Shown here one piece after another: positions 19,984 through 52,789 of a DNA stretch of 54,590 nucleotides. The DNA is from Candidatus Omnitrophota bacterium (lineage in GTDB: Bacteria > Omnitrophota > Gorgyraeia > Zapsychrales > Zapsychraceae): assembly GCA_015233405.1 (NCBI GenBank), contig JADFXT010000003.1:1-54590 (forward strand). The letters run 5' to 3'. A model generated the notes under the pieces. The model was not told the DNA's origin and did not search any database. It was given only the letters and a program-made list of their open reading frames with translations. How positions within the stretch are numbered: position 1 is the first letter of the stretch; every line of letters starts with the position of its first letter. The position numbers were made by a program, and so were the translations under genes.

Positions 19984-21381
19984 TTAACGATAGCTGTTCG
20001 TTTCTTCCGTATTGATCGCGTGAAATAAACAACCGCGGGTAACGCTCGTAAAAGGCTCGTCGGATTTCTTTATTTCGCCGACTCTAAACCCTAACCGGAC
20101 ATTTATCAGCTCCTCTTTGACCACGTCGAGAAAATTTCCGACCAAAGACGACCCGCCAGCAAAAACGATGTCAATCGGGTCCCTAAACTGTAACGGCTCT
20201 TTACTGTTGCCGAAGACCTGGGCCATACTTTCTAAGAAATAACGGATATAATTCCGGTAATAAATGGCTATCGCTTCTTCCTCGCGCGATTTTGGGCTTT
20301 TTAAATTCATGCCTTGTTCTTTGATGGTCGTGGCCTGGCTAACCGGAATATTTAAAACCGTGGCCGCGCTTTTATCGATCCAATCTCCGCCGCGGGTTAT
20401 GGAAAAAGACAATACCGGGACCGACCGGTAGGCCGCGCAGACATTGACCATTCCTCCGCCGCAGGAGACGCCGATACCCGTAAAATCTTTATACTCAAGT
20501 TCAGACAAGACGACCGCGTACCCTTCATCAATCACAATCGGATGAAATCCTAACGTCCGCAAAATACCTTCAAAAACGCCTCGATGATAAATCGTATCCT
20601 GATTACGGTCGATCGGATTTGCCGGAATGGAAAAGCAACAGATCTCTCCTTCTCGTCGAGCCGGCCAAAGAATATTCTGGACGATCAGTTTAATGATCGG
20701 AATAGATTCCGACTCAGAAGGATTTAAGATCCCCACGCTCATCGACCGCTGCACTTCGCGGTTAAAAATATTCGCAAGGTTCAAAGCAAGATTCCCTAAG
20801 ACAAACATATTATTTCCCAAGGAGGCGTATTTGATCCGCAATTTTTCCAAAAGCTCTTTGGTGGCATTGTCCGCTCTGACCGAAAGAAAAGCGTTCCGCT
20901 CTGTCTTAACAAAAACCCTTGAACCTTCGACTTCGCGAGAAGCAACGAGATAAGCAGTCCCGAGGTCCAACCCGACGCCAAGACGTTCCGGCGCTTTCTT
21001 TTCCTGCGGCTCACCGGCAGATGGAAGACTGATCGAAGTAGTCTTTTCCTCCGACAAGGTTGGCGCCATTCCGTCCGGTTCTGGCATAATCTGGTCCGGG
21101 ACCTCTTCGGTCACGGTTTCTTTAGCCACAGCAACAACTTCAGGCGCTAATTTCTTACGTAAATATTGATTAATGACTTTCAGCTTATCGCGCATTTGTT
21201 CGAGGGAAAGATTCTGAACATCAGTATCAGGACGGTCCGCTACAGATGTTTTGCTTGTTCTATGAAGATGGGTCCGAGGGGACGAGAGGTTTCTAACCTT
21301 TGAGTTAAGGTGCTTTAATCTGGAATAGACATCTTCAAGGTCTTGGGGAGTTCGTGTATGATCAGGTCTTGGGATAGCCAT
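19984..21381 (-). CDS. Actin-like ATPase with 132-residue N-terminal extension (MamK-type paralogue)
   Basis: 465 residues. The actin fold starts near residue 133 with phosphate-1 loop GLDLGT (137-142), a conserved SVPANPID segment shared with the next actin, phosphate-2 GVSCGGGMVNVC and adenosine motif FAGGSSLVG. The extra N-terminus has two helical stretches (near 15-35 and 58-80) and a Pro/Glu-rich linker; bacterial MamK/MreB proteins normally lack this. It is paralogous to the gene at 21505 across the whole actin core. No Shine-Dalgarno sequence is visible before the ATG; the leader is very A/T-rich and lies behind a terminator-like hairpin. A filament protein for magnetosome chain assembly is inferred from family and context. 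Confidence 0.88.
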   Translation of the reverse strand: MAIPRPDHTRTPQDLEDVYSRLKHLNSKVRNLSSPRTHLHRTSKTSVADRPDTDVQNLSLEQMRDKLKVINQYLRKKLAPEVVAVAKETVTEEVPDQIMPEPDGMAPTLSEEKTTSISLPSAGEPQEKKAPERLGVGLDLGTAYLVASREVEGSRVFVKTERNAFLSVRADNATKELLEKLRIKYASLGNNMFVLGNLALNLANIFNREVQRSMSVGILNPSESESIPIIKLIVQNILWPARREGEICCFSIPANPIDRNQDTIYHRGVFEGILRTLGFHPIVIDEGYAVVLSELEYKDFTGIGVSCGGGMVNVCAAYRSVPVLSFSITRGGDWIDKSAATVLNIPVSQATTIKEQGMNLKSPKSREEEAIAIYYRNYIRYFLESMAQVFGNSKEPLQFRDPIDIVFAGGSSLVGNFLDVVKEELINVRLGFRVGEIKKSDEPFTSVTRGCLFHAINTEETNSYR

Positions 21382-21439
21382 GATATATATTTATAAATTT
21401 AAAAAATCTAAGATTCTATTAAGACTTAGTTCGATAAAA

Positions 21440-21497
21440 TAACCCCGCCATTTTTGTTTGAAGAAACAACTACTCATCAATAAAACTGGCGGGGTTA
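21440..21497 (-). terminator. Terminator-like hairpin after the MamK-type gene
   Basis: TAACCCCGCCA and TGGCGGGGTTA (21487-21497 and 21440-21450) form an 11-bp GC-rich stem, extended after a mismatch by a TTTT/AAAA pairing, with a loop of about 36 nt. In transcript direction the second arm is followed by ATTTTAT. The hairpin begins only 7 nt after the actin gene's stop codon. It divides the two actin genes and should reduce read-through into the downstream coiled-coil/actin set. Confidence 0.7.
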
Positions 21498-21504
21498 TCG
21501 GATT

Positions 21505-22548
21505 TTACTTGGTATTTTTCTTTGGTTTTGCTTCGCTTTCTTGCTGTTCCTGTTCCATCTCCGCATCATTAAGCGCCGCTAAAAGACATCCTTTAGCCGT
21601 CGCATTTAAGGGCTCTTCCGCCAATCTCACTTTATTAATCGGTATCGGGAAATCAACTTTCTTCAACTCTTCTTCAAACACATCCACAAATCCCCCGATT
21701 AAAGAAGTTCCTCCCGAACAAACAATGTCGACGGGATCAGGAAATTGCGGAACGCTTTCAGCCGATTCGAATTTTGCCTTGATGTTCGTAATGGTATAAT
21801 TGATCAAGTTTCGATAATAAATACCAATCGCTTCATGTTCACGGGTCTTAGGATTTTTAAGATCAACCCCTTTTTCCTTGATGGCCGCCGCGCGGGTTTG
21901 ATTAATCCCTAGAACATTCGCCACATTTTTATCAATCCAATCTCCGGAACGGCTCGTCGAGAATGCGACAGCCGGAATAGTCTTATAAGCAACGCAAACG
22001 TTGACCATCCCGCCACCGAACGAAATACCTATACCGGTAAAATCTTGTTCCGCCAATTCGCTAAAAACAACCGCGTGGCCTTCATTCATTTCTTTGCCGA
22101 CATAGCCTAAATTCTTAAGCGCCCCGGCAATAATTCCCGAGTGGTAGACAATGTTAAAATCAGCGTCGATGGGGTTAGCCGGTACCGAATAATAACACGG
22201 CGTGTTCGGTTCTTCGGCTTTCCCGATGACAGCTTCGACCAAAAGGCCAAAAATAGGAGCGGCATCGGCTTCATCCGGGCTCATGACCCCAGCTTTCATG
22301 GGGCGGCGAATGACCTTATTCATAATATTCGCCAGTTCAAACGCGGATTCGCCTAAGACATAAACTTTCTTGCCCAGCTCCACGTATTGGACTTTTTGCT
22401 GCAGCAACATTTTCTTTGTAAAAGGGTTTACGTCGATATCAAGAAAACAATGCCGCATAAGCTTTATCTTGATATTCCCTTTATCGTCCTGAACAGCGCC
22501 CGCTAAATTCATTGTGCCTACGTCGAGGCCTCTCACTCTTTTTGCCAT
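21505..22548 (-). CDS. mamK: Actin-like ATPase, MamK-type
   Basis: 347 residues, the same length class as characterised MamK. It has phosphate-1 GLDVGT near the N-terminus, connect/phosphate-2 region GISFGGGMVNVC and adenosine motif CSGGTSLIGG. A charged C-terminal tail (EQEQQESEAKPKKNTK) may be a docking site. AAGGAG lies 7 nt upstream of the ATG. MamK filaments align magnetosomes along the cell axis. The sequence is distant from proteobacterial MamK (my comparison from memory), so it could equally be the Mad28-type actin of deep-branching magnetotactic bacteria. The symbol rests on fold plus gene neighbourhood. Confidence 0.8.
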   Translation of the reverse strand: MAKRVRGLDVGTMNLAGAVQDDKGNIKIKLMRHCFLDIDVNPFTKKMLLQQKVQYVELGKKVYVLGESAFELANIMNKVIRRPMKAGVMSPDEADAAPIFGLLVEAVIGKAEEPNTPCYYSVPANPIDADFNIVYHSGIIAGALKNLGYVGKEMNEGHAVVFSELAEQDFTGIGISFGGGMVNVCVAYKTIPAVAFSTSRSGDWIDKNVANVLGINQTRAAAIKEKGVDLKNPKTREHEAIGIYYRNLINYTITNIKAKFESAESVPQFPDPVDIVCSGGTSLIGGFVDVFEEELKKVDFPIPINKVRLAEEPLNATAKGCLLAALNDAEMEQEQQESEAKPKKNTK

Positions 22549-22584: not shown

Positions 22585-23370
22585 TTATTCTGAAGCTTTT
22601 GGCTGTTTTTTATAATAATGTCCCCTGGCCTTGGCCCGGGTGTCTGCTAACATTAATCGGATTTCGTCCAAGCTTTCCTTGGCCTGTTCCAATTCTCTCT
22701 TATATTGTTCTTTCTCTTCCATATTAACGCGAATTTCTTGAGCAGCCTCTTCCAACCGGCCCTGTAATTCTTCTTTTTCTTCTTCTAATAGATAAATCTG
22801 GTTCTGGAAGTTCTGGATCGTCGAGTTCGTACTGTTTAATTCTAGCTCGATCTGTTCAATACGCGTATCTCTCGCCTTGACATCTTTTATTAATTGCTCC
22901 ATCTTCTTGGTCAAAATTTCTTTTTCTTCATTGCCGTCTTCCAATTCCTGCTCTAAAGTTCGTATCCGTTCCATGGATTCTAAGCGTTCATTCTCTAAAA
23001 ATTCAAGGTCAGAATTCAGCTCTTCCTGAGAAACCAAAACTTCTTGAAGCTCTTTGACTTTGGCATCTAAGGCAGCATTTTTTTGCTCGGCCTTTTCCTG
23101 CTCTTTCTGCAGCTTCGCAATTTCTTTTTCCTGGGTATCTTTGATGCTAAACGCGGCTTCGAGCTGTTTCTCTAAATCCGAAATGATTTCAAAAACGCTC
23201 GCCTTTTCCTCATCCGGCGACATGAAATATTTCTGCCGCGAGACTTCTTTCTTTACGGCATCCAGTTGTTTCTTGAGGACAGATTTTTCGACGGGCTTTT
23301 CTTCCGTCACCCTTTTTAATGTCGATTGAAGCAATGGATTATCAATTCTTCTCATAGGTCTCACTGTCAT
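22585..23370 (-). CDS. Long soluble coiled-coil protein
   Basis: 261 residues, almost wholly coiled coil from about 30 to 245, Glu/Lys-rich, with no TM. The short N-terminus is basic (MTVRPMRRIDNPLLQS) and the C-terminus is basic-aromatic (ARGHYYKKQPKASE). It is placed between the ParA-type ATPase and the MamK-type actin, with 36-bp gaps on both sides. Possible roles are a ParA-interacting partner or a filament cross-linker. There is no ParB-like HTH or CTPase motif in it. I cannot name the family. Confidence 0.82.
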   Translation of the reverse strand: MTVRPMRRIDNPLLQSTLKRVTEEKPVEKSVLKKQLDAVKKEVSRQKYFMSPDEEKASVFEIISDLEKQLEAAFSIKDTQEKEIAKLQKEQEKAEQKNAALDAKVKELQEVLVSQEELNSDLEFLENERLESMERIRTLEQELEDGNEEKEILTKKMEQLIKDVKARDTRIEQIELELNSTNSTIQNFQNQIYLLEEEKEELQGRLEEAAQEIRVNMEEKEQYKRELEQAKESLDEIRLMLADTRAKARGHYYKKQPKASE

Positions 23371-23406: not shown

Positions 23407-24171
23407 TTATTTTTTTTTCACTTTATCTTTGCGCTGCAGAACTTCTTTGGCTAAAGAGGCATACGTTGTTGCACCTTTCGAGCCTTTGTCGTACTTATAA
23501 ACAGGAAGATGCGCGTTGTGGGCTTCTTCCAGCTTGATGTTTTCCGGGATGATCGTATTAAAGACCTTGTCGCCGAAATAATTCTTAATGGCATTTTTGG
23601 CTTCGTTGGTGACGACTCGGTCTCTAAATCGTGTAATTAAAACCCCTAAGATATTTATTTCGGATTCTAGCCCTTGCCGCACCTTCACGACGATCTCTTC
23701 TAGCAATTTAATCCCTTTAAGCGAAAAGAAATCAGGACAAATAGGAACCAAAAGTTCATTACATGCAGTTAAGGCGTTGACCGTCAAAAGTCCTAAAGAC
23801 GGCGGCGCGTCGATGATCATAAAATCATATTTCAATTGGCGAACATAGTGAAAAAGGATTTTCTCGCGGCCGATCTGCTCGGATATGCGCATCGAGGCTC
23901 CAGAGAGCCCGATATCGCTCGGCACCACATCAATGCCAAAGGCTGTCGAGTGCTGAACCACCTCATTAATCTTCATCCCGCCGATCAAGACATCGTAAAT
24001 GGTATTCTCGAAGTTAGATCCTCCAAAAATCGCGGATGTGGCGGAATTTTGAGGATCCATATCAATTAAAAGCACCTTTTGATTCATTCGAGCCAATTCC
24101 GCGGCTAAATTAACTGATGTGGTGGTCTTAGCCACGCCGCCTTTTTGGTTTGCTACGACGATTCGTCTCAT
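23407..24171 (-). CDS. ParA/Soj-family ATPase
   Basis: 254 residues of a classic ParA/MinD P-loop ATPase: deviant Walker A QKGGVAKTT (9-17) with signature Lys10 and catalytic Lys15, switch I DMDPQNSAT, Walker B-like IIDAPPSLG. No N-terminal HTH and no cognate ParB gene in the window. ParA-type ATPases without ParB position other cargos (for example McdA for carboxysomes, PpfA for chemoreceptor clusters). Flanked by a small TM protein and a coiled-coil protein next to MamK, this one is a good candidate for magnetosome positioning or segregation. The Gly-to-Ala change in Walker A (GVAKTT instead of GVGKTT) is a tolerated variant. Confidence 0.92.
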   Translation of the reverse strand: MRRIVVANQKGGVAKTTTSVNLAAELARMNQKVLLIDMDPQNSATSAIFGGSNFENTIYDVLIGGMKINEVVQHSTAFGIDVVPSDIGLSGASMRISEQIGREKILFHYVRQLKYDFMIIDAPPSLGLLTVNALTACNELLVPICPDFFSLKGIKLLEEIVVKVRQGLESEINILGVLITRFRDRVVTNEAKNAIKNYFGDKVFNTIIPENIKLEEAHNAHLPVYKYDKGSKGATTYASLAKEVLQRKDKVKKK

Positions 24172-24236: not shown

Positions 24237-24431
24237 TTACGAAGCGCTGGCGTATCCTTCTTTAAAAGATTCTGCAGCCCCTTCAAAAAGCTTCACAGTA
24301 CTATTTTTAATCCCAACGACTGACTGCTGAACATCTTTTAAAATTTTCGGGTTTTTCTTTTTAAGAATTTTATACCCGACGACTCCGACGACGGCTATTC
24401 CGGCGACTACTAATAAAGATTTTGTAAACAT
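24237..24431 (-). CDS. Small single-TM protein with SF-x-EG tail motif
   Basis: 64 residues: N-terminal TM helix (about 5-22), Lys-rich stop (KILKKKNPK), then an amphipathic helix ending in ESFKEGYASAS. The layout is YtxH-like. Its start overlaps the HEAT gene's end by 22 bp, so translation is probably coupled. The C-terminal motif SFxEG recurs in the proteins at 28170 (KSFQEGFYS) and 29392 (ESFDEGVQS). Function unknown; likely a membrane anchor for a cytoskeletal component. Confidence 0.8.
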   Translation of the reverse strand: MFTKSLLVVAGIAVVGVVGYKILKKKNPKILKDVQQSVVGIKNSTVKLFEGAAESFKEGYASAS

Positions 24432-25546
24432 ATTTTTCCTCCTTGTTCTTCAGCTGCGTTTTTCTCGATAGTTTGTGCATGGCCCTTCATTGAAGATCCA
24501 AAAGTCCCTTGGTTATTGATCCACCAAAACCGCCACGCCTCGATGGCTTCTTCTTTATGTTTCTGGGAACCTTTAGAATGAAATTCAAAATTTTGTTTCG
24601 TGATCTTTCTTAATGCGGCGTCCGCAGCTTTCTGGATTTCCTGGTTCTCGTCGGCCAAAAGCGTTATCAAAGCCGAAATCGCCTGCTGCGCCTTAAACGT
24701 TCCGCACATCTGAATCGCAGATTTACGGATATTATCATCGACATCGTGAAGAAGTTTCGTAATAAAAGGAATCGCGCGGTCCCCATAAGCCCAGCAAACA
24801 AGATTTAAGGCTTGCTTGCGGATATCCGCTTCCGGATCTTTAATGGCCACAGATAATAACACCAAACTTTCTTCATCCTTATATTTTGAAATGGCCCTCA
24901 GTGCCGCAAGCCGCATATGCGAATTCGGATGGGCCAAAAATTCTTTAAAAAATTCTTTATCCAAATCGCCCTTCTCATTTAACGTCGAGAGAGCGTTGAG
25001 AATTTCCACCTTCTTTAACTCTTCTTTTTGTACAAAAAGCAATTTCTTTAAGATCCCAACCGCAGCGGGCTTAGACAATTTCTTGATCTGATCCAGGGCT
25101 TCTGAACGTAATTTAGCGAGTTTCGCATCAAAATCCCGCACATAAATCTCTGCACGGAAAAGTTCATCTTTATCGGGAAAAGGTATCCCGCTAAGAAAAC
25201 TGCCTTGGGTAGCCGTTTCTTTCTTTATTTCTTGAACAGGAACAGGAATGGGTTTTTCTATTTCTTTCTGAAAGGATAACAGCACCGGATTCGGCGCGGC
25301 CTTGTGTTCTTCTTTCTTCACTGCCGTAAAAGGAACAACAACTTCTCTGTCTGATTTTACATAAGAACTATATGATTTCGCCGGCTCAACCGGTTTTGCA
25401 GGGCTTTTGATTTCAGTCGACGGCTGCGGCTTTAAAAATGGCAGGATCGCATAAAAATTATCCTCGACGAGTCTTGTGCACTCACCCAAAAAACGCATAG
25501 TATCATTCGTTATTGAAACAATAGGATTAGGGCTTTCTTGCGTCAT
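24410..25546 (-). CDS. HEAT-repeat scaffold protein
   Basis: 378 residues. The N-terminal 130 are Pro/Lys-rich and probably disordered. From about 135 to 330 are alpha-helical HEAT/PBS-lyase-like repeats, recognisable by spaced D-x-x-(I/V)-R-x-x-A units (PNSHMRLAAL, PEADIRKQAL, VDDNIRKSAI, ENQEIQKAAD). The C-terminus has EEAIEAWRFWWINNQG, close to EAIKRWKQMWKENQ in the HEAT protein at 26149. No enzymatic motif. It is one of three HEAT proteins in this block, each next to a small basic helical protein; protein-protein scaffold inferred. Confidence 0.85.
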   Translation of the reverse strand: MTQESPNPIVSITNDTMRFLGECTRLVEDNFYAILPFLKPQPSTEIKSPAKPVEPAKSYSSYVKSDREVVVPFTAVKKEEHKAAPNPVLLSFQKEIEKPIPVPVQEIKKETATQGSFLSGIPFPDKDELFRAEIYVRDFDAKLAKLRSEALDQIKKLSKPAAVGILKKLLFVQKEELKKVEILNALSTLNEKGDLDKEFFKEFLAHPNSHMRLAALRAISKYKDEESLVLLSVAIKDPEADIRKQALNLVCWAYGDRAIPFITKLLHDVDDNIRKSAIQMCGTFKAQQAISALITLLADENQEIQKAADAALRKITKQNFEFHSKGSQKHKEEAIEAWRFWWINNQGTFGSSMKGHAQTIEKNAAEEQGGKICLQNLY

Positions 25547-25630
25547 AGCTCTCCTTTTGTGCTTTATTTGTTTATCATTATTACATACGCGATTTCTTAG
25601 TCAAGAATTTTCTAAACAAATCCTACGGGC

Positions 25631-25801
25631 TTACGTCGTTAAATCTTCCCTTTTTTCCTTCACATATTCAACAAGCTCGGATACGCGCTCAATTTCCATT
25701 TCAAGATTTTTATTGTCTTCTTCAAAGAAGAATTTAAGCTTGCCCGAATGATGCCAATCGTAAAAACTCTTTCCCAGGTCTAAATAAATTTTATTTTCCA
25801 T
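25631..25801 (-). CDS. Small helical protein (56 aa)
   Basis: A 56-residue frame beginning MENKIYLDLGKSFYDW and ending VEYVKEKREDLTT. The ATG overlaps the last codons of the preceding gene in another frame (ATGGAAAATAA shared), and AAGGAC lies 8 nt upstream. Gene-like start and tight coupling support it as real. The region LGKSFYDW...LEMEIERVSELVEYV resembles the N-terminus of the HEAT protein at 26149 (FGKLVSD...LERKAEELL). Length excludes most domain searches by eye; function unknown. Confidence 0.72.
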   Translation of the reverse strand: MENKIYLDLGKSFYDWHHSGKLKFFFEEDNKNLEMEIERVSELVEYVKEKREDLTT

Positions 25802-26159
25802 TTTTTAAGTCCTTGATATCTTTAACCAACTCTTTTCCCCCATCCAAAACCGTTCTGGAAAATCGGCCAAGCTCGTAGGACATATCACAAAAAACCGTTT
25901 TGAAATCAAGGCCTTCCAAATTTTTCTTCGCGTCAGAGGTAATGTTCTTGACCATGGCCATGGTTTCTTTTTTAAGCTTTTCTGTCTTCTGCTTCTTTTC
26001 TCCGGAATCGTCTTCCATCCATGCGTCTGCCAAACGGTCTGTTCCCGCGGAAAATTCCTGTTTTAGTGCCGAGCATGTTTTCTTAACAGCGCGGAATGTT
26101 TTTGTGCGCGCCTTTTGACCGGGGTCATTCTCTGTATTATTGGACTGATTATTTTCCAT
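25791..26159 (-). CDS. Small basic helical protein
   Basis: 122 residues, Lys-rich and helical, no TM. N-terminus polar (MENNQSNNTENDPGQKAR), middle amphipathic (ALKQEFSAGTDRLADAW), C-terminus GGKELVKDIKDLKNGK. It overlaps both neighbours by 11 bp. The pattern of repeated Val/Phe/Leu faces on Lys-rich helices resembles the proteins at 28170 and 29392. I recognise no family. Translation coupling places it in the same complex-building block as the HEAT proteins. Confidence 0.75.
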   Translation of the reverse strand: MENNQSNNTENDPGQKARTKTFRAVKKTCSALKQEFSAGTDRLADAWMEDDSGEKKQKTEKLKKETMAMVKNITSDAKKNLEGLDFKTVFCDMSYELGRFSRTVLDGGKELVKDIKDLKNGK

Positions 26160-28167
26160 ATCTTGCGCTACTACTTTTCTTAAAGACTTGAACGGGCGCG
26201 ACTGACTTTTTTCCTACGGCCGGCTTTCCCATATATTTTTCTTTAATAACCAGTTTTGTATTACGGATATCCATTAAAAACCGTGGATTCGTTTGATTTT
26301 CTTTCCACATTTGTTTCCATCGTTTAATGGCTTCATTACGAACATCCTCCGGCGCCATATATTTGTATCCTAAATCCGTATCCGTGATGGACTTAAGCGC
26401 ATCAATCGCCTCTTTCCTGATTTTCATATCTTCGCTGTCCAATTTAGGGATCAGGTGAATGAACGCAAACCGGCTACGACTTTTCCCTAATTTGCGGATG
26501 GCGATACGCGAAACGCCTTCATCGGCATCATTGATAAGCTTTACGATCGTCGACATTTCCGCATCAGACCCCGCATGGCTCACACAATTAGCGACGAGCC
26601 TTCGGATAGAACTGTCCGGATCATTGGCGGCTGATAAAATAATGGCTTTCGCCTTAGGATGATTTAACTGGCTTAATCCCATAAGGCCATTTAACCGCAG
26701 CATGGAATCTTCTTCGTCGAGGAAACGCTCATAAATTTCGATCAAGATCGGGTTGTCCACCTTAGCCAACAAATTAAGGAAAGATTTCTTGGCTGACAAA
26801 TCCGCTTTGAAAAAATAATTGCTGATAAAATCCGAGATCGTATCGGGAATATTGTTGATCAGCATATTAAGAATCGCCAATTTTTCGTCTTGCTTGGTCA
26901 ATTCGTCCTTGAATTTCCGTTCAGCGGCTTCAAGCAGTCTCGGATCAAACTCATGGACTTGCTCTTCTTCATGGATTATGGGCGCGCTTAAAGATTCCAG
27001 CGCTGGAGGCATCGGGATATTCTCCTCAGGCAATTCTTCAACGGGCTTTTCTTCAGCTTCTAAAACGACTTCCTTCTTAATTTCCGTCACAACTTCTTGC
27101 GGCTCTTCTTTCTTCGTCGGGGTCTCCCGATCGATGATCTTTTCAGCCAAGGCTGTATTTCTTTCCAACAATGCATTTTGCCGATCAATATCTTTCTCGT
27201 AGGAATGTTTGACGTCCTCGAAAAGTTGTCTGGCGTGATTGACCAGCGAGTCAATGCTTCCGGCGATATCTTTGATTTTCGCTTGCGCATCATCCAGAAA
27301 ATCTTTTTCAATCGACGATGTCGCCAGATCAGATTTTTCTTTAATATTATCTATGGCGGTTTTCTTCGTATCCATAATCTGCTTGATTACCTCCGTTAAT
27401 TGGCCCAACGATAAATTGATGGCTTCCTTTAATTCTTTAAATTCCTTAATATCTTCATGTGACTGTGCATGATCAATAAAATGCAAAGAAGATTTCACCA
27501 GCGCCGCAAGCCAGTCCAAATCATTATAAAGCAAACTTAAATCTTGCTTCATAGCATAAATCGCCACGTTCAATCGCGTATAGGGTTCGAGCAATCCCCT
27601 CTTATTGATCGGTTCAATAATTTCGCTGTTCGCCGGCAAAGCCGCGGGTTCTTTTTTTTCAATATTCTCGACGGGACTCGAAACGGCAACGTTCTCTTTT
27701 TTTTCCGCTAAGAGACGCGTACGAATCTGAAGCCTGCGTTCAACCGGCGCATGGATGATTGTCAACGCGCGGTCTTCTTTACGCTCAATACTTTTTCCTT
27801 TAGGGGGCTCCGGTTTTTTTTCAATTTTACTATGCTTAAGAGGCTCTTCCTTTTTAACAAATTTTGTTTCTTTAACAACTTTTTCTTTTTTAGGCGGTTC
27901 TTTCATTGGTGGTTTTGTGTCTTTCTGTGTTGGCTTTTCTTCTTGAGGAATCGCTACTGGCTCCACAGGCACAATTTCCGTTACCGGGTGAACCGCGCTC
28001 AATAATTCTTCAGCTTTTCTTTCTAAATCTTGAAATTCAGGATTAAACAGATAGGACAAGTTTCCATCCTGGACGCTGTCACTAACCAATTTGCCAAAAT
28101 GCACATAAAGGCCATCTAACTGCTCATCGCATTTTTGTATCTCTTGCTCGTTTTGTTTTATTGCCAT
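26149..28167 (-). CDS. Large coiled-coil/HEAT-repeat protein
   Basis: 672 residues. Residues 1-50 are a short helical domain; 60-180 are Pro/Lys/Glu-rich and probably disordered; 190-350 are helical and coiled; 350-420 are acidic-proline linker; 420-630 are HEAT-like repeats (DSMLRLNGLMGL, PDSSIRRLVANC, ADEGVSRIAIRKL, EDMKIRKEAIDAL). The C-terminus is basic (VFKKSSSARYGK). No TM or enzyme motif. It is the largest protein of the HEAT set and shares the EAI...W...W..NQ element with the 24410 protein. Probably a cytoplasmic scaffold around magnetosomes; this is inferred from position only. Confidence 0.83.
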   Translation of the reverse strand: MAIKQNEQEIQKCDEQLDGLYVHFGKLVSDSVQDGNLSYLFNPEFQDLERKAEELLSAVHPVTEIVPVEPVAIPQEEKPTQKDTKPPMKEPPKKEKVVKETKFVKKEEPLKHSKIEKKPEPPKGKSIERKEDRALTIIHAPVERRLQIRTRLLAEKKENVAVSSPVENIEKKEPAALPANSEIIEPINKRGLLEPYTRLNVAIYAMKQDLSLLYNDLDWLAALVKSSLHFIDHAQSHEDIKEFKELKEAINLSLGQLTEVIKQIMDTKKTAIDNIKEKSDLATSSIEKDFLDDAQAKIKDIAGSIDSLVNHARQLFEDVKHSYEKDIDRQNALLERNTALAEKIIDRETPTKKEEPQEVVTEIKKEVVLEAEEKPVEELPEENIPMPPALESLSAPIIHEEEQVHEFDPRLLEAAERKFKDELTKQDEKLAILNMLINNIPDTISDFISNYFFKADLSAKKSFLNLLAKVDNPILIEIYERFLDEEDSMLRLNGLMGLSQLNHPKAKAIILSAANDPDSSIRRLVANCVSHAGSDAEMSTIVKLINDADEGVSRIAIRKLGKSRSRFAFIHLIPKLDSEDMKIRKEAIDALKSITDTDLGYKYMAPEDVRNEAIKRWKQMWKENQTNPRFLMDIRNTKLVIKEKYMGKPAVGKKSVAPVQVFKKSSSARYGK

Positions 28168-28169
28168 TA

Positions 28170-28631
28170 TTAAACCTTATCTATTTCTTTTATTTCTTTG
28201 TCGATCTTTTCAATTTCCTCGTCAATATTAACATTCTCTATCACCGCATAATCCGCACCGACATCCACCTCAGCCAATTGAGGAAGCTCCGTCGATGTTT
28301 CTTGTGGCAAGGTTTCATCCGATGGAGATCCCTCTAAAATGTCTTCTACTTTCTTTCTAGTAGAAACGGATGGGTCTTTCTTTATAGAATAAAAACCTTC
28401 CTGGAAAGATTTCGCAATATCAACTGCGCCCTCTTTAACTTCTTTGCCGATTTTAAGAGAAGAGGTTTTGGTCTTTTCCCAAGCCACCTTGGAAACGCTG
28501 GCGACTTTGTCTAATTTGACGGATGTCTTCATCTTCTTCACCCGGGCAACTGCTCGGCCGGTTTTAAAACAAACTTGCTGCACCAAATTTTTCTTATCGG
28601 AATTATTGTTAGCTGTCTTTTTTGCCATCAC
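28170..28631 (-). CDS. Small basic protein with SF-x-EG motif
   Basis: 153 residues (GTG at 28631, or ATG at 28628; a GGGAGA site is 8 or 11 nt upstream). The Lys-rich helical N-terminal half (KTGRAVARVKKMKTSVKLDK) leads to KSFQEGFYSIKKD, and the C-terminal half is acidic (VDVGADYAVIENVNIDEEIE). The start lies inside the end of the preceding HEAT gene, 23 bp of overlap. It shares the SFxEG motif with the proteins at 24237 and 29392. Unknown function; possibly binds the acidic surface of a HEAT scaffold. Confidence 0.75.
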   Translation of the reverse strand: MMAKKTANNNSDKKNLVQQVCFKTGRAVARVKKMKTSVKLDKVASVSKVAWEKTKTSSLKIGKEVKEGAVDIAKSFQEGFYSIKKDPSVSTRKKVEDILEGSPSDETLPQETSTELPQLAEVDVGADYAVIENVNIDEEIEKIDKEIKEIDKV

Positions 28632-29358
28632 GTTTCTTTCTCCCAGTTGTCTTCTTCAAGTTTTCTTTTTGAGATATTCTTGAAATTTTGGATTTCGTCT
28701 TGATCTTATCAACTTTTACGTCAACAGATGACTGCGGAACAAGCTCAGTCAACTCTTTAAAACATTTCTGGACGTACACATCAGTATCATCCTTAAGTTT
28801 CACTATCACGGCCAGTCCTTCATCGCCGCCATGAAGCCCTAAACAGGTCACGGCCATTCCGCGCACATAAGGGTCAGCGTCATCAAGCATCGGTACAATC
28901 AAAGGAACAACGTCTTTACGCAAAAGTTTGCTTAATACTTTGATCGCCGCGGTCTTGACCGAGCTGTCCGTATTATTAAGATCGGCGATATACCGCTCTT
29001 TAATATCCTCTTCTTGACCTTGGCCTGATTCTTCCATTTGTTCTGTCTTAAGGCTTTCTAAAACAGGTTCAGTCTTTGGGCTCTCAACCGGCTCTTCTTG
29101 AGAAACGACTAAAACGTGGCTCTCCACTTCAGGAACAACATCTTTCTGTCCGAATTTGGCCTGTCGGATAGCGTCAATTTGTTCGTCAATGATCTTAAGA
29201 AGATTGAAAATTTTCTTGATGCTCTTTTGCTGTTCGGTAGCTTCAGGCGCATAAAGAAGCCGGACCGATTCGGCCTTATATAGCCCATAAATCAACGAAC
29301 CCAGTAAATATTTCGCTTTATTATTTTGACTTTTTAGATCCGCGATTTGAATCGGCAT
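28609..29358 (-). CDS. HEAT-repeat protein with N-terminal LYKA helical domain
   Basis: 249 residues. The N-terminal helical hairpin (about 12-65, with LLGSLIYGLYKAESVRLLY) resembles the whole small protein at 29818 (LLGEAMSSLYKAQKLRVLY). A Glu/Pro linker follows (70-120), then two or three HEAT repeats (TDSSVKTAAIKVL, ADPYVRGMAVTCL, TDVYVQKCF) and a very basic tail (TTGRKKRDGKKDS). Third HEAT protein in the block. No catalytic motif. The LYKA domain duplication suggests the two proteins share a binding partner or heterodimerise. Confidence 0.82.
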   Translation of the reverse strand: MPIQIADLKSQNNKAKYLLGSLIYGLYKAESVRLLYAPEATEQQKSIKKIFNLLKIIDEQIDAIRQAKFGQKDVVPEVESHVLVVSQEEPVESPKTEPVLESLKTEQMEESGQGQEEDIKERYIADLNNTDSSVKTAAIKVLSKLLRKDVVPLIVPMLDDADPYVRGMAVTCLGLHGGDEGLAVIVKLKDDTDVYVQKCFKELTELVPQSSVDVKVDKIKTKSKISRISQKENLKKTTGRKKRDGKKDS

Positions 29359-29391
29359 AAGATCGGTCTTTTCCCGTAGGCGATGATTCGA

Positions 29392-29766
29392 CTATTTTCG
29401 TTTTGTTGCTCTCTTTTTCGAAGGGGCTTTTTCAGATTTTTCTTCGACGTCGGCAGATTCCGTTTTCTTCTCTTCAGCTTCTACTTTTTCTTCTTTCAAA
29501 GATTCCTGCTCTTTTTTCGCCCTTTTTCCTTTTCTGACTTTCTTTTCTTTCGCCTCTTTGACTTCCACATTTACCGGCGCAGGGTCCATCTCTTCTTCAG
29601 CAAGAGATTGCACGCCTTCATCAAAGGATTCTTTCATGTCAGCCAAGCTCGTTTTTGCGTTCTTGCCAAGGCTTGTTATCTTTCCAAAAAAAGATCCTGT
29701 TTGGTAAGATATACTTTTAAGGATATTTGCAACCGCGTCTTGTTCAATTTTTTTCTCTTTTGTCAT
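29392..29766 (-). CDS. Small protein with SF-x-EG motif and Lys/Glu-rich tail
   Basis: 124 residues. The N-terminal 60 are helical and contain SYQTGSFFGKITSLGK and then ESFDEGVQSLAEEE. The C-terminal 60 are an alternating Lys/Glu, Ala-rich low-complexity tail ending KKRATKRK, reminiscent of bacterial histone-H1-like tails. It is probably disordered and binds anionic partners (DNA, lipid or protein). The layout parallels the proteins at 24237 and 28170. No family recognised. Confidence 0.75.
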   Translation of the reverse strand: MTKEKKIEQDAVANILKSISYQTGSFFGKITSLGKNAKTSLADMKESFDEGVQSLAEEEMDPAPVNVEVKEAKEKKVRKGKRAKKEQESLKEEKVEAEEKKTESADVEEKSEKAPSKKRATKRK

Positions 29767-29817
29767 ATATGTCTCCTGGTTATTGGAAAGTTCTTGTTCA
29801 AAATTGTTCTTACTTTA

Positions 29818-30030
29818 TCAGCTATTTGAAGATGCTTCAAGCTTCTTTATCTTGTCCTGCAGATGCTCCATAAGCCTTAAAAGCTTCAAGACCTCTGCTT
29901 CGCTATCTACAGCGTCGGATGTATAAAGGACCCGTAACTTTTGGGCTTTATAAAGCGACGACATCGCCTCCCCAAGAAGAAAAAGGAGCTTTTTCTTTTT
30001 AAGCTGTAAATCATCTAGTTGCTTCTTCAT
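29818..30030 (-). CDS. Small LYKA-domain helical protein
   Basis: 70 residues, two predicted helices, no TM. Sequence LLGEAMSSLYKAQKLRVLY followed by a Glu/Leu-rich second helix aligns with the N-terminal domain of the HEAT protein at 28609 (LLG, LYKA, R-x-LY and the downstream K...L...D.I spacing are shared). It precedes the 29392 gene with a 51-bp gap. Probably a stand-alone version of the HEAT protein's docking domain. Function unknown. Confidence 0.75.
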   Translation of the reverse strand: MKKQLDDLQLKKKKLLFLLGEAMSSLYKAQKLRVLYTSDAVDSEAEVLKLLRLMEHLQDKIKKLEASSNS

Positions 30031-30057: not shown

Positions 30058-30732
30058 CTATTTTGCCTCTTGGCTGGAAGGCTGCTGGTCTTTCCAAACG
30101 GAAATGTTCGCGGCAACCGCATCGTCTAAGGCAATATGTGCGCCTTCACACTCAATAACATAAGTCGGATAATTCTGATGGAGTTTGATAACAACGCCTG
30201 GCCGAACACACAGCCCTTCCATAATATGGATCTGTTGGTCATTTTGACATTTGACATACGCTATTCTGGCTGAGGCCCCAAGTTTAAGCTGATTAAGCGG
30301 CAACACACAACTTAATGCTGTCTTTTCTGAACGCTTACAACATTCGCCCTCAGGAATAGGAAGCCCATGAGGGCACTCTTTCGGATGCCCTAGCAAAGTA
30401 CAGATACTATTGACCAACTCCAAAGAAACGATATGCTCAAACTCACACGCGCCTTTTTCCACATCGCTACCCAAAACATCATGCAAAAGCCGTTCCGCTA
30501 GACGGTGTGCTCGGATCAATTGGCGGGCTTGAGCTTCCCCCGAGCTTGTCAGGCTGATATTTCTAGCATCCGGACTAATTTTTGCGAGGCCTTCTACGGA
30601 AAGTCTCTCAAGAAGGACCCCATCAAATTTATCGGCCAAAACCCGCTTTAAAGCAGTGACGGAAGTTTGTTCGTCCTCCTTCATATACCACAACTGCTCA
30701 AGATATTCATCAAGATCATGTTCTTGTGTCAT
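30058..30732 (-). CDS. DtxR/MntR-type metal-dependent regulator with FeoA-like C-terminus
   Basis: About 224 residues: N-terminal winged-helix region, DtxR dimerisation/metal domain and a C-terminal SH3/FeoA-like domain (about 140-215). Metal ligands fit the family: Cys96, Glu99 and His100 in ACEFEHIVS, HRLAERLL, and GHPKECPHGLPIP. The ATG at 30732 has GAAGGG 9 nt upstream; the TTG at 30738 is too close to it. The DNA-binding part looks several residues shorter than usual where the recognition helix should be. It sits next to FecR-like and FeoB-like genes, so iron-dependent control of this cluster is plausible. I see no palindromic operator to support that. Confidence 0.85.
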   Translation of the reverse strand: MTQEHDLDEYLEQLWYMKEDEQTSVTALKRVLADKFDGVLLERLSVEGLAKISPDARNISLTSSGEAQARQLIRAHRLAERLLHDVLGSDVEKGACEFEHIVSLELVNSICTLLGHPKECPHGLPIPEGECCKRSEKTALSCVLPLNQLKLGASARIAYVKCQNDQQIHIMEGLCVRPGVVIKLHQNYPTYVIECEGAHIALDDAVAANISVWKDQQPSSQEAK

Positions 30733-31687
30733 ACGCAAAAACCCTTCCGATATTCACGGTTAACGCCAAATATAAAATAAATGCCAAGAACGATGCAGAA
30801 GTTCCCATTTTTCCTGTCACCGCTGACATCATGCTTAAAGACTTATGAAAGACCATATCATAAATAAATACCCGAGCGGAAGAATAATTATTGATCGTAT
30901 AATTGACATTTTGCGTATTCGTATTTAACGACGTTTTTCCTGATAAGGCGGCGATTTCATTGATCCAGGCCAGCCACTCTGCGCGCTCACTGTCGGTAAT
31001 TCGTGCCACCCGCGACGGCTTTTCGAATTGCATAAGCTGGACTTTCCAGCCGTCATTTAAAAGAAGCTCGTCTTTATTCTCGATGAAATCTTCATTGATG
31101 CCTTTCACAAAAATCCGGCTATCAAAATCCAGAATAACCGCTTCCTTGCCTCTTAAACTAACGCCAAAACTTGTCCCGCGGACACCGGCAACCGCGACAG
31201 GAGTGCGGACTTTAAACGTCGAACCTTTTTCCAGTTTTTCCAACTTTAAAATAATGTCGCCTTGATCTAAGAAAATATTGGTCTGTTTTTCAATGGTCGC
31301 GCTTTCTAAAACCATATGCGAATTACTGCCGACACGCACCACATCTTTAAGCCCGTCATCATACGCCACTTCAAGAAAAGCGCCATCCGCGGTTTGAATT
31401 TTATCGCGAGAATTTAAGACCATTCCAACAACCGGAGTTATCTTTTCGTTGCCACGCACAACAGAAACTGAGCCGGACATTCTTAAAACGCGGGCATGGT
31501 CCTGGGAATTATTGGAGAGATAATTTAAAGATAAAAGAATAACAGCTAGCGCAATGGTTGCCGTGAGAACGACGACGGGTTTATCCGTGAACCAGCCACG
31601 ATTTTGCGCGCAGTTTTTATTTTTGCGTTTAGTTTTTGCCATGAAAGCGTTGAGGTTGACTCTGATTCTGGAGTGACTACTATACAT
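30716..31687 (-). CDS. FecR-domain membrane protein
   Basis: 323 residues from the first ATG (31687); a second ATG at 31642 (MAKTKRKNK) is a possible start and neither has a strong ribosome site. A TM helix near 40-60, a periplasmic FecR domain (about 70-215, with RTPVAVAGVRGTSFGV) and a C-terminal hydrophobic segment (SFLAFILYLALTVNIG). FecR normally relays siderophore signals from a TonB receptor to an ECF sigma factor; neither is present. The gene overlaps the DtxR-type regulator and follows the FeoB-like gene by 35 bp. Some FecR-domain proteins are structural or glycan-binding, so signalling is not certain. Confidence 0.82.
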   Translation of the reverse strand: MYSSHSRIRVNLNAFMAKTKRKNKNCAQNRGWFTDKPVVVLTATIALAVILLSLNYLSNNSQDHARVLRMSGSVSVVRGNEKITPVVGMVLNSRDKIQTADGAFLEVAYDDGLKDVVRVGSNSHMVLESATIEKQTNIFLDQGDIILKLEKLEKGSTFKVRTPVAVAGVRGTSFGVSLRGKEAVILDFDSRIFVKGINEDFIENKDELLLNDGWKVQLMQFEKPSRVARITDSERAEWLAWINEIAALSGKTSLNTNTQNVNYTINNYSSARVFIYDMVFHKSLSMMSAVTGKMGTSASFLAFILYLALTVNIGRVFAYDTRT

Positions 31688-31722: not shown

Positions 31723-33792
31723 TTATATTATTTTAAAGCCATGAATCGCAAAGAACAGTAGCCAATTCAATATCCCCGCAAAAGAAAAAGATACGACGAT
31801 AAAAAGGATGGACATGACAACCGCGGTCTTGACTCCCATTTCCTTGCTTAACGCGATAACGCTCGCAAAGCACGGATAAAATATGGTCGTGATAACAACC
31901 GCGACAATGGACTGAATGTAGGTAAGCGCTCCAGCATCGACCATTTTATAAATAAGGCCTGCCGCAGCTTCCCGTCGGGCAAAAGCGAGGATAAAAACAT
32001 CCACCATGCTCGATGGAAGGCCCATCCATCCGACCATCAAAGGATTGAGCAGGTGCTTTAATCCATTTAAAAGGCCAATTTTATCGGCGACGAAAAGAGC
32101 CACGGCCGAGATAACGAAAATAGGAATGGCTTCCTGCAAGAACCAAACAATCCGATAATATGTCTTCACGCAAACGGCCTTAAGACTAGGAAGCCGCATT
32201 TCCGGAAGGACCTGGATAAAATAATTTTCGCCCTTATCCTTAATGATGACATTAAGCACTAAGCCTGCGACGATTTCCAAGATCGCCAGCGTCCCAAAAG
32301 CGATCAACGAAGCAGACATGCCGAATTTTCCCAGGATAGCGATATTAATACCCAGCTGGACCGAGCAGGGAATCGCAAAGAGAATTAAAAAATTGGTAAT
32401 GAATTTTTCCTTGTACGACGTCAAACCTTTGGTCGTCAACGTCGCCATGGTCTTACAGCCAAAGGCCAAAACAATTGAGGTAATGGCCTTTCCGGTCACG
32501 CCTAATTTCTCAAAGATCCTTTTGGTTAAGACGCTAAAATTCGCGATGTATCCGCAATCTTCGAAAAATCCATAAATGAAAAAGAACACCGTAAGGATGG
32601 GCAGCACCGTACAAATGGCATTTAAAAGCCCGAGGGTCAATACGCCGTGATTGCCGATGAGAAAATCATTCCAGAATACCGGCAGTTTAAGCAAGGTTAT
32701 GAACATCAGAATCGGATTAACAAAATACTGATTGATCGGCCTATCAATATATTTTGCAGCGTCGACGACGGTCAAATAAACGATCGCGATGAAAAAGAAA
32801 AGAATGGGAATTCCCCAAATAGGATGGCGTGTGGCCTGAGCAAAATAATACGAAAAACCACGAGCAGATTCTTCTTTCTTGACCGTCCCTTCGGAAATTT
32901 GATCAACCCATTGATGGCGCTTGCCGTGAATTTCCTGACGGATCCTATCCTGGAACTGCCGTCGGGTCTTCCCTATTTCTTTACGCACGCCATCAAGCAT
33001 GACCTTGCCATGTTTTTTCTCGAGAAACTTTTCAAAGAATGGGTCCGTCAACAAAAGCAGGACTGCGGTCTTAAATTTAAAAACCATTTCCAAAGGCAAA
33101 ACCGCCATGACGTCAATAATGGCACTTTCGATCTTAAACCCATATTTAATATTGGCCTTACTTTTGCGCGCCTTAGCGATAGCGTTCTTAAGTTGTTTGT
33201 CTCCGGTGCCGCGAATAGCGATCGATTCAATCACAGGCACGCCTAAATGCTCTTCCAATTTCTTGGAATCTATGGCAATCCCCTTGCGCGCGGCTTCATC
33301 AATAGCGGTGATGACAATCACGACGGGCGTTTCCAATTCCAAAAGATCGGCGGTCAACAAAAGGGATTGTTTATAATGAAGGGCATCAATGCACTGGACG
33401 ATGACATCTGGATGTTCTTCAAAAATCAAATCGCGGACAAGGATTTCTTCTTCGGAGTGGACATAAAGAGAATGCAAGCTTGGCGTGTCAATGATCTCAT
33501 AAAGCTGGCCTTCGATCTTAGCTAAGGTCCGCTTGACTTCAATCGTGGTCCGCGGATAATTCGCAACAATATTATAATCGCCGGTAAGATTATTAAAAAG
33601 CTGGCTTTTGCCGGTATTCGGAAGCCCGATTATAGCGACTTTCTTGATGAGGGCTTTGTTGGGAGCGTCTTGGGATGGTTCTGCCATACGGCCTTCTTTA
33701 CGGCTGTTTTTTTCTATTCCACCGTTCTCATTTTGAATGGCAAGCGGAACATTTAGAGAAGCATTGTTCGTCTTAGTCATTTTATCAGCCAT
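31723..33792 (-). CDS. feoB: FeoB-family ferrous iron transporter
   Basis: About 689 residues. A disordered N-terminus (about 48 residues), G domain with P loop GLPNTGKS, then the two Gate regions and about 8-10 TM helices (for example FEDCGYIANFSVL and AFGCKTMATLTTK, equivalent to the conserved GFGC segment). G3 reads DTPS where FeoB has DTPG, and G4 reads TAID where NxxD is expected, so GTP specificity or hydrolysis may be altered. No feoA or feoC gene is adjacent, but the DtxR-type regulator has a FeoA-like domain. AAAGGA 10 nt before the ATG at 33792 supports that start. FeoB homologues occur in magnetosome clusters; ferrous iron import to cytoplasm or magnetosome is inferred. Confidence 0.9.
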   Translation of the reverse strand: MADKMTKTNNASLNVPLAIQNENGGIEKNSRKEGRMAEPSQDAPNKALIKKVAIIGLPNTGKSQLFNNLTGDYNIVANYPRTTIEVKRTLAKIEGQLYEIIDTPSLHSLYVHSEEEILVRDLIFEEHPDVIVQCIDALHYKQSLLLTADLLELETPVVIVITAIDEAARKGIAIDSKKLEEHLGVPVIESIAIRGTGDKQLKNAIAKARKSKANIKYGFKIESAIIDVMAVLPLEMVFKFKTAVLLLLTDPFFEKFLEKKHGKVMLDGVRKEIGKTRRQFQDRIRQEIHGKRHQWVDQISEGTVKKEESARGFSYYFAQATRHPIWGIPILFFFIAIVYLTVVDAAKYIDRPINQYFVNPILMFITLLKLPVFWNDFLIGNHGVLTLGLLNAICTVLPILTVFFFIYGFFEDCGYIANFSVLTKRIFEKLGVTGKAITSIVLAFGCKTMATLTTKGLTSYKEKFITNFLILFAIPCSVQLGINIAILGKFGMSASLIAFGTLAILEIVAGLVLNVIIKDKGENYFIQVLPEMRLPSLKAVCVKTYYRIVWFLQEAIPIFVISAVALFVADKIGLLNGLKHLLNPLMVGWMGLPSSMVDVFILAFARREAAAGLIYKMVDAGALTYIQSIVAVVITTIFYPCFASVIALSKEMGVKTAVVMSILFIVVSFSFAGILNWLLFFAIHGFKII

Positions 33793-33828
33793 CTTCAATC
33801 ATTCCTTTGGGCAGGACAAACTAAAAAA

Positions 33829-34644
33829 CTATTTTCCCCACAACATCTTGGAGATCACAGAGGTTTTTTGGGGCTTTCTTTTATCGTCGACATCAAACAA
33901 CTGTTCCTGTTCCTCTTCTGCTGGAGCCGATTCAGAAGCGGCATCCTCAATAGCACTTTTCTTCACCGTCAAATCAGCGGGGTTCGTCTCTTCTGTCGGA
34001 GTTTCAACAGGCGGCTGCTGTTCTGTGGCTGGATTTTCTGACTTTTCTTCCGCAGGAACAACAGCTTCGGGCTCCTTAGATTCTTCGGGCGAGCTAAAAT
34101 ATTTTTTCTTCGGATTAACACTTACGCCTTGTACGCTAAAATTGAATTTGAAATTTTTCCAACCAAAAACATTTTCAAGCTCGCTGCTTAAGGTCTGTTC
34201 GATCCGGCTTAATTCCTGCTGGACCGAAGGCACTCCGTGCAAGTCAATGGCGATGGAAATAATAAAACCTTCTTTCGGTTTATTATAAAAATTCACATGA
34301 AAATAGCTCACGTATGGATTTTGTGTGCCGATCTGTTTGATGAAATCCATGACGGTTTTTTGCGGGATATTTAAAACCTTGCCGTCTTGCTCGACGGTGA
34401 TGACCTTCGGGTCGTGTTTGGTGCGCGCGGATAAGACCAGCAGGATAAATCCTAAAGCAATAAAGAACGCTCCCGCGCCTTGCATCGTCTTAAGAGCGCT
34501 CGGTGTCTGAAGTAAATTATTATATAAGGTCACGAGCTTGTCCGGCGATAATCGACCTAATCCGACCGCCAAAAAGACCAAGCCTTCAAACATGCACAAA
34601 GATGCCGCGACCACCAAAAACAATTTCATAAAAAAAGTTTTCAA
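33829..34644 (-). CDS. AmaP/Asp23-like membrane anchor protein
   Basis: 271 residues: two TM helices (about 6-30 and 52-72) with a short loop, then an Asp23/DUF322-like alpha/beta domain (about 88-175, with FIISIAIDLHGVPSVQQEL) and a Pro/Glu/Thr-rich cytoplasmic tail ending SVISKMLWGK. The layout matches AmaP, the membrane anchor of Asp23 in Gram-positive bacteria. There is a TTG start with GAGGAG 9-10 nt upstream. No separate asp23 gene is seen. Found between a FeoB-like and PDZ gene in a magnetosome context; it might organise membrane scaffolding. Family assignment is by pattern and moderately sure. Confidence 0.72.
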   Translation of the reverse strand: MKTFFMKLFLVVAASLCMFEGLVFLAVGLGRLSPDKLVTLYNNLLQTPSALKTMQGAGAFFIALGFILLVLSARTKHDPKVITVEQDGKVLNIPQKTVMDFIKQIGTQNPYVSYFHVNFYNKPKEGFIISIAIDLHGVPSVQQELSRIEQTLSSELENVFGWKNFKFNFSVQGVSVNPKKKYFSSPEESKEPEAVVPAEEKSENPATEQQPPVETPTEETNPADLTVKKSAIEDAASESAPAEEEQEQLFDVDDKRKPQKTSVISKMLWGK

Positions 34645-42544: not shown

Positions 42545-42816
42545 TCTTCATCCTGGAACAACACTTCTTCCCCTTCGGGAATGGCTTCCATTTTTCGTTT
42601 TTTCTTAAGTCGAGCGCCGACAAGGGTTATGATCCAAAACGCATTTAACATGCCCAAAAGATATGCCGCCCAAATGATATAAATAAGCCCAATATGTCGG
42701 CCTTTAAAAAGCGGGATCCAGATCGTTACGGGATCCGTATTTTCAAAAATAAAGAAAACCATCAGGACCAATCCCAAAATAATTCCAATCACCTTCATGA
42801 CCGTCAACATTCTCAT
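42541..42816 (-). CDS. LapA/DUF1049-like two-TM protein (MamL-like)
   Basis: 91 residues: two TM helices (about 6-25 and 42-65), a VTIWIPLFKGRHI-type loop as in LapA proteins, and a basic then acidic tail (RLKKKRKMEAIPEGEEV). MamL has the same size and topology and also resembles LapA domains; its basic tail is thought to act on membranes. Start AGGAG-TGCAAG-ATG. It overlaps the hemL stop by 4 bp and its own stop overlaps the mamM start by 4 bp, so it links the heme and magnetosome genes. I leave the symbol empty because the sequence is short. Confidence 0.8.
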   Translation of the reverse strand: MRMLTVMKVIGIILGLVLMVFFIFENTDPVTIWIPLFKGRHIGLIYIIWAAYLLGMLNAFWIITLVGARLKKKRKMEAIPEGEEVLFQDEE

Positions 42817-44114: not shown

Positions 44115-44575
44115 AAGAGTTTCCCTAAAGCAAGCTTGTCTTTTTTAAGTTCCTTCTCCGTAAAAAGGATTTCGGCGGTCAGCTTAAATTTTTCCGCTGT
44201 TTGCCGGACAAAACCTTTTATCTCGGAGGCTGTCTTTGCATGCATCATCGTAAAAGTATCATAGTTAAAAGATTTTTGAGGTGTGCGTTTATAGCAATGC
44301 GAGATCCTGTCATCACCCATAAAAACTTTCTTTATGACATCCGTGTTGGCCTTGTGCCAGGCAATGAGCGCATTGGTTGTATATCCTACCCGACGATGGT
44401 GAATGACCCCGCGCAAATCCTTAATCATGCCTTGTTTCTTTAATCTCTGAAGGATACCGACCACTTCCGTTTCTTCCATATTCAAAGCTTGTGCCACTTT
44501 CTGAAACGGCCGAGGTGACAGTTCAAGGTCGTATTCAGAAAAATATTTGAGCACTTTTTTTTCTTTCTCACGCAT
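44111..44575 (-). CDS. ahbB: Siroheme decarboxylase subunit (AhbB-like, Lrp/AsnC fold)
   Basis: 154 residues: winged-helix plus RAM-like domain of the AhbA/AhbB/NirDLGH family. The RISHCYKRTP and NYDTFTMMHAKT segments are typical of the AhbB/NirH side. AhbA and AhbB together decarboxylate siroheme to 12,18-didecarboxysiroheme. It is adjacent to an AhbA-like gene, with 8 bp of overlap, and both are flanked by AhbD and HemL, so I reject a transcription-factor reading. A/B labelling follows the HCY versus HNY motif and could be swapped. Confidence 0.92.
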   Translation of the reverse strand: MREKEKKVLKYFSEYDLELSPRPFQKVAQALNMEETEVVGILQRLKKQGMIKDLRGVIHHRRVGYTTNALIAWHKANTDVIKKVFMGDDRISHCYKRTPQKSFNYDTFTMMHAKTASEIKGFVRQTAEKFKLTAEILFTEKELKKDKLALGKLL

Positions 44576-46986: not shown

Positions 46987-46995
46987 ATTTGTATC

Positions 46996-51540: not shown

Positions 51541-51544
51541 ATTT

Positions 51545-52778: not shown

Positions 52779-52789
52779 AATTCTTTCGA

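Follow-up and report, generated by a model that had tools for sequence, protein, structure and literature searches.

What is the role of a nine-gene block that lies inside the magnetosome gene cluster (MGC) of a Candidatus Omnitrophota bacterium? The window, i.e. the whole stretch of DNA analysed, comprised bases 1–54,590 of a contig (JADFXT010000003.1) that is 186 kb long and comes from a metagenome-assembled genome (MAG) with a completeness of 84%. The block occupied positions 24237–30030 on the minus strand, where nine co-directional genes encoded three HEAT-repeat proteins (HEAT-A, HEAT-B and HEAT-C) and six small helical proteins. Comparing the genes of the block with one another and with their counterparts at orthologous loci indicated that the six small proteins were of two unrelated kinds, designated H and S. 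We propose, with a probability of roughly 0.6, that three paralogous H-HEAT-S cassettes together form a module for magnetosome chain organisation, which would tether magnetosomes through contacts between these partners. The module itself is real, conserved and lineage-specific, and more regular than a preliminary description of the window had recognised.

The open reading frames (ORFs) of the block were found where the preliminary description had placed them, and the HEAT proteins at 24410, 26149 and 28609 all matched PF13646 above the Pfam curated cut-off. In the related genome nHLHbin2, all nine genes were present in identical order. The divergence from the nHLHbin2 orthologues was concentrated at third codon positions in nine of nine genes, which, together with the conserved order, argues that the small ORFs, too, are genuine genes on which selection acts. 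Four of the eight junctions overlapped (by 22, 11, 11 and 23 nucleotides (nt)), fewer than the majority described before, and the remaining gaps measured 2, 33, 51 and 84 nt. The small proteins had been described as basic and helical; they were helical, and only part of them was basic, with net charges ranging from −5 (25631) through +1 (28170) to +6 (24237). Profile searches of the block proteins against Pfam and NCBIfam matched no enzyme family, in line with the preliminary description, and none of the proteins matched a Mad model in NCBIfam.

Kind H was a short helical hairpin with an LG...Y motif at its start. It was fused to the N-terminus of HEAT-B and HEAT-C and stood alone in the genes at 29818 and 25631, the latter being the separate H gene immediately upstream of HEAT-A. 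Kind S had a stretch ending SF.EG..S; its domain was common to 24237 and 28170/29392, with a weaker match in 25791. In profile comparisons with hhalign, the stand-alone hairpin H2 (25631) matched the HEAT-C hairpin with 96% and the HEAT-B hairpin with 76%, and the remaining H pair reached 62%. The S protein at 24237 (S1) matched the S3/S4 family (28170/29392) with 71%. None of 150 column shuffles, used as a control, scored as high as the H or S1–S3/S4 comparisons, and the H and S profiles did not match unrelated coiled-coil neighbours. Beyond the attached HEAT repeats, no convincing Pfam family was found for the H and S proteins (S1, H and S2/S3/S4 members). What is new here is that the block, as read from these alignments, is a repeated cassette in which each HEAT protein is accompanied by a hairpin H and then by a small amphipathic S.

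HEAT-C (28609–29358, 249 amino acids (aa), PF13646 E-value 5.6e-10) consisted of an N-terminal H hairpin, detected with hhalign, a linker and HEAT repeats. Its partner S3 (28170–28631, 153 aa, GTG start) was a small helical protein whose gene overlapped HEAT-C by 23 nt, and the S34 family alignment (12 sequences) contained the SF.EG..S motif and a C-terminal EIEKI-type helix. HEAT-B (26149–28167, 672 aa, PF13646 E-value 6.2e-12) was modelled with AlphaFold2 at a mean predicted local distance difference test (pLDDT) value of 64. It comprised the N-terminal H hairpin, a disordered linker, a long helical or coiled-coil region (residues 190–347), an acidic linker and a HEAT solenoid (409–646). The small helical partner of HEAT-B, S2 (25791–26159, 122 aa), overlapped it by 11 nt and belonged to a family of 13 members from the related loci and the window. 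The HEAT-A cassette was composed of H2 (25631–25801, 56 aa), a stand-alone acidic hairpin from a family of 12, followed by HEAT-A (24410–25546, 378 aa, PF13646 E-value 6.5e-17) and S1 (24237–24431, 64 aa). The AlphaFold2 model of HEAT-A (mean pLDDT 74.9) had an N-terminal helix (14–34), a disordered linker and a HEAT solenoid (122–350) with a pLDDT of about 83–95, mostly >90; outside this solenoid, confidence was moderate in the two models. A fourth hairpin domain at the N-terminus of HEAT-A was considered and rejected by profile comparison. S1, the partner of HEAT-A, is predicted to contain one transmembrane segment, starting at about residue 5 (Kyte–Doolittle 19-mer value 2.21), and then an amphipathic helix ending SF.EGY, in which F56, E58, G59 and Y60 were invariant in a 12-member alignment. 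A specific functional relative was also sought by fold, and Foldseek against the PDB returned generic HEAT/ARM proteins only, mostly designed alphaRep and armadillo proteins.

Two further genes, H4 (29818–30030) and S4 (29392–29766), stood ahead of HEAT-C. The block of most related genomes started with a unit made up of a single H-acidic linker-HEAT protein of 389–426 aa and, after it, one S protein. This unit occurred twice in the window and in nHLHbin2, where HEAT-C had been copied jointly with its S partner and one copy was without the HEAT part. The 70-aa hairpin protein H4 shared 42–53% identity with the N-terminal part of the one H-HEAT protein in other genomes and 31% with the N-terminus of 28609; it reads as the remnant of a duplicated H-HEAT gene after loss of the HEAT part. 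S4, a small helical protein of 124 aa with a charged, K/E-rich tail, was a duplicate of S3 (BLAST E-value 1e-5 to 28170 and 2e-8 to S3 of nHLHbin2). The presence of 29818/29392 beside 28609/28170 can be attributed to a duplication of the first cassette in the branch of the window, with one copy losing its HEAT part. The single first unit in most relatives points to an ancestral block of three cassettes, which would have read [H-HEAT-C]+S, [H-HEAT-B]+S2 and H2+HEAT-A+S1. The pairing of each scaffold with a small partner, suggested in the preliminary description, was borne out by the shared domains and by the joint duplication of one pair. A strict picture of three pairs overlooks both the fourth, HEAT-less pair 29818/29392 and the stand-alone 25631.

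A search with HEAT-A alone retrieved two close relatives, and the nearest kin of the window were Omnitrophota MAGs. The presence and absence of the genes were surveyed in 384 Omnitrophota genomes, with MamP counted above 160 bits. Orthologues of HEAT-A and of HEAT-B were found in the identical 12 genomes, which belonged to four families, one of them in a different class. MamP was counted in 12 genomes, of which 10 were common with the HEAT set (five of five among genomes at least 90% complete). Chance co-occurrence was rejected on the hypergeometric value for this overlap (p 2.5e-16), although relatedness is ignored in it. An orthologue of the actin-like Mad28a (69% identity or more) was detected in 12 genomes, 11 of them HEAT-positive, and the block was absent from roughly 370 sampled genomes without an MGC or Mad28a. 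The suggested link to magnetosomes was upheld in this sample: the block was restricted to genomes that have Mad28a, nearly all of which had mam genes, its homologues were not mostly in MGC-free genomes, and 10 of the 12 HEAT genomes carried MamP. Two MamP-positive genomes were HEAT-negative because their contigs break where the block is expected; contig 26 of G358 (9,144 bp) stops inside Mad28a, and contig 110 of G372 begins with the gene that precedes the FeoB end. As far as the contigs extend, the order FeoB-FecR-DtxR/FeoA-[H-HEAT-C]-S-[H-HEAT-B]-S2-H2-HEAT-A-S1-ParA-coiled coil-Mad28a-Mad28b was fixed across four families. Several of these genomes had additional, more distant Mad28-like actin loci or pairs, at which no HEAT block was found. 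Genome G164 carried the FeoB-to-ParA region, with its HEAT block, in two diverged copies (L028 and L029), representing either a second cluster or mixed strains.

The block lay between an iron module and a ParA/actin module, as the preliminary description had stated. On the upstream side, all on the minus strand, were a FeoB ferrous iron transporter resembling Mad17 (31723–33798, PF02421 E-value 2.3e-46, TIGR00437 E-value 1e-90) and, next to the block, a DtxR-type regulator with a C-terminal FeoA domain resembling Mad30 (30058–30738, PF02742 E-value 1e-23, PF04023 E-value 6.6e-7). The next gene after the block encoded a ParA-family ATPase (23407–24171, minus strand, PF13614 E-value 7e-51) with 69–96% identity across related loci. 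It was followed on the same strand by the coiled-coil protein CC261 (22585–23370), which was kept beside ParA in relatives and had generic coiled-coil matches only. Its Pfam and NCBIfam matches to SMC/Rad50-type models were judged to reflect coiled-coil similarity only. Two actin-like proteins of the Volactin family came next, also on the minus strand: Mad28a (21505–22548, PF25216 E-value 1.9e-81) and Mad28b, with an N-terminal extension (19984–21381, PF25216 E-value 1.5e-72). Their match to PF25216 was strong and their MreB signal marginal, which sets them, by family match, apart from MreB and MamK as MGC actins. No MamK was found in this MAG; the best MreB-family match lay outside the cluster and resembled a cellular MreB.

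The preliminary description did not recognise the block as a described system. This no longer holds in full, as Mad23 of deep-branching magnetotactic bacteria is a published HEAT-domain protein of chain assembly from the same gene neighbourhood (PMC7951924, PMC12748827). In Desulfovibrio magneticus RS-1, Mad20, Mad23, Mad25 and Mad26 arrange magnetosomes into chains together with MamK and Mad28, the deletion of mad23 leaves the crystals scattered, and a strong two-hybrid interaction between Mad23 and the coiled-coil protein Mad25 was attributed to the HEAT domain of Mad23 (PMC12748827). Mad23 is described as required for linking crystals into subchains, with Mad25 and Mad10 as its contacts. 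The HEAT repeat of Mad23 has also been recorded with a suggested role in sorting (PMC9840458). In strain FSS-1, the gene order by locus tag is mad17, mad30, mad11, mamK, mad10, mad23, mad25, mad26, mad28 and mad29 (PMC7951924). Compared with this order, the genes of the block resembled mad23 in being MGC genes near FeoB/FeoA (mad17/mad30) and near coiled-coil and Mad28-like genes. Like Mad23, the encoded proteins had a HEAT domain (PF13646 in all three, with solenoids modelled in HEAT-A and HEAT-B) and no transmembrane segment. Unlike the RS-1 module with its one HEAT gene, the block had three, each with a hairpin and a dedicated small partner, one of which is predicted to be membrane-anchored, and it was accompanied by two Volactin-type actins, with no MamK found in this MAG. 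In Bdellovibrionota, a Mad cluster of similar gene content is reported, in which mad17, mad23, mad25, mad27 and mad30 recur, mad28 being present and mamK missing (PMC13200544); two Volactin-family actins without MamK (19984–22548) were the pattern observed here. The available parts of the literature naming both MGCs and HEAT repeats describe no multi-HEAT block with small partners. The MamJ/MamY/MamK magnetoskeleton of Magnetospirillum is alike in its proposed role, linking magnetosomes to actin-like filaments, whereas no match to its families was found here; HEAT solenoids and small partners would replace the acidic MamJ and the membrane protein MamY. PBS-lyase/NblB-type proteins share the HEAT repeat fold, and the NCBIfam match to NblB was weak, its 32.5 bits falling far short of the curated cut-off of 300.

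Judged by domain and neighbourhood, the block is probably an expanded version of the Mad23 step and descended from it. We hypothesize that the module acts as the Mad23 step of the Mad20/23/25/26–Mad28 pathway, grown from one HEAT gene to three. The HEAT solenoids would serve as adaptors, the H hairpin likely as an oligomerisation or docking piece, and the S partner as an attachment to membrane or filament. S1 would be held in the membrane by its single transmembrane helix, and the amphipathic S2–S4 may rest on the membrane surface or form bundles with other helices. Through S1, the HEAT adaptors would join magnetosomes to CC261, a possible functional counterpart of Mad25/Mad26, and to filaments of Mad28a and Mad28b, with the ParA-type ATPase distributing the magnetosomes. 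A bolder form of this proposal is speculative, and we hold it only tentatively: a three-part tether confined to Omnitrophota, in which three non-interchangeable H-HEAT-S complexes, one anchored by S1, link magnetosomes to a MamK-free Mad28a/b filament and to ParA. Such a tether, with its own H and S families, would have arisen by repeated duplication of one unit of hairpin-HEAT protein and small partner.

To our knowledge, chain building without MamJ/MamY in deep-branching magnetotactic bacteria was solved only recently, and only in RS-1. For a phylum without a cultured model, the block provides defined candidate parts, namely three HEAT adaptors, each with a small partner, and one membrane anchor, and its cassettes offer testable protein pairs. 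It also suggests how a scaffold step that relies on one gene may grow, namely when a scaffold–partner cassette is duplicated repeatedly.

Several observations speak against the proposed module. HEAT solenoids are generic binders, and S2 matched the other S families with 18% and 10%, weak though above the shuffles. In G128, HEAT-A, S1, ParA and the actins were separated by about 40 kb from HEAT-B and HEAT-C, so the block need not be one operon. In genomes G309 and G074, which had the block with ParA, both actins and the coiled-coil protein beside it, mamB, M, N, P and Q were not detected; the missing mam core may reflect MAG incompleteness (84–86%), or the block could work without it. These two genomes also favour the notion that the HEAT proteins form a lineage-specific accessory family, e.g. 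a general cytoskeletal scaffold, which has no magnetosome role and sits in the cluster by history. We consider this improbable, given the fixed order across two classes and at least four families and the absence of the block from the roughly 370 genomes lacking an MGC or Mad28a.

The main rival to tethering, which we regard as unlikely, is that the HEAT and S proteins are cargo adaptors of ParA, spacing or segregating magnetosomes on a nucleoid ParA gradient in the way of McdA/McdB or of organelles positioned by ParA, rather than building chains. S1 was directly upstream of ParA in nearly all loci, no gene in the region was better conserved than ParA, and several of the small proteins had charged, flexible tails, as adaptor proteins often have. 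Three HEAT scaffolds, however, exceed the need of known ParA adaptors, the two actin genes and the coiled-coil gene were equally constant neighbours, and the Pfam and NCBIfam searches detected no ParB/McdB-type domain among the block proteins. The data fit the ParA adaptor and tethering alike. A further reading assigns HEAT-C and HEAT-B with their partners to iron import, where they would organise FeoB, FecR and DtxR/FeoA at the magnetosome membrane, and in most loci HEAT-C did come after FeoB and the DtxR/FeoA gene. This reading has little probability in our estimate, as the block of G074 had no adjacent FeoB or FeoA, the first HEAT gene of G128 followed FecR at a place where FeoB and FeoA genes were lacking, and HEAT-A was always found with ParA.

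The remainder of the MGC in the window included MamP (52790, 215 bits, carrying CXXCH), MamM (41654), MamB (40696), MamA (39888), MamQ (39159), MamN (37327) and a protein similar to TauE and the MamO C-terminus (36306). The NCBIfam scores fell short of the curated equivalog cut-offs, which is expected for a distant phylum. At the iron end of the cluster, a FecR-domain protein (30716–31687) and an AmaP-like membrane protein (33829–34644; 52.1 bits, slightly under the curated cut-off) were conserved. In locus L032 of G074, the HEAT/ParA/actin unit adjoined a divergent ABC-type substrate-binding-protein gene, with no FeoB/FeoA alongside and no mam core detected, and it may be a unit that moves on its own.

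Between MamM and the CXXCH-bearing MamP, a tetrapyrrole/heme biosynthesis operon (42813–52814) was recognised by sequence reading only. It encoded GSA (glutamate-1-semialdehyde) aminomutase-, HemB-, HemC-, HemA-, cobA-hemD- and CcsA-like proteins, two heme-type radical SAM proteins and two small Ahb-type regulators, and it may supply heme for magnetochrome proteins. The operon was largely syntenic in G164, G193, G310, G338 and G358, and G114 and G372 lacked it between these two mam genes. At the other end of the window, two near-alike ORFs of 94 aa, read as GIY-YIG-type endonucleases (3656–3940 and 9449–9733), flanked PAS/kinase genes, and a relative also adjoined a second actin pair in locus L077.

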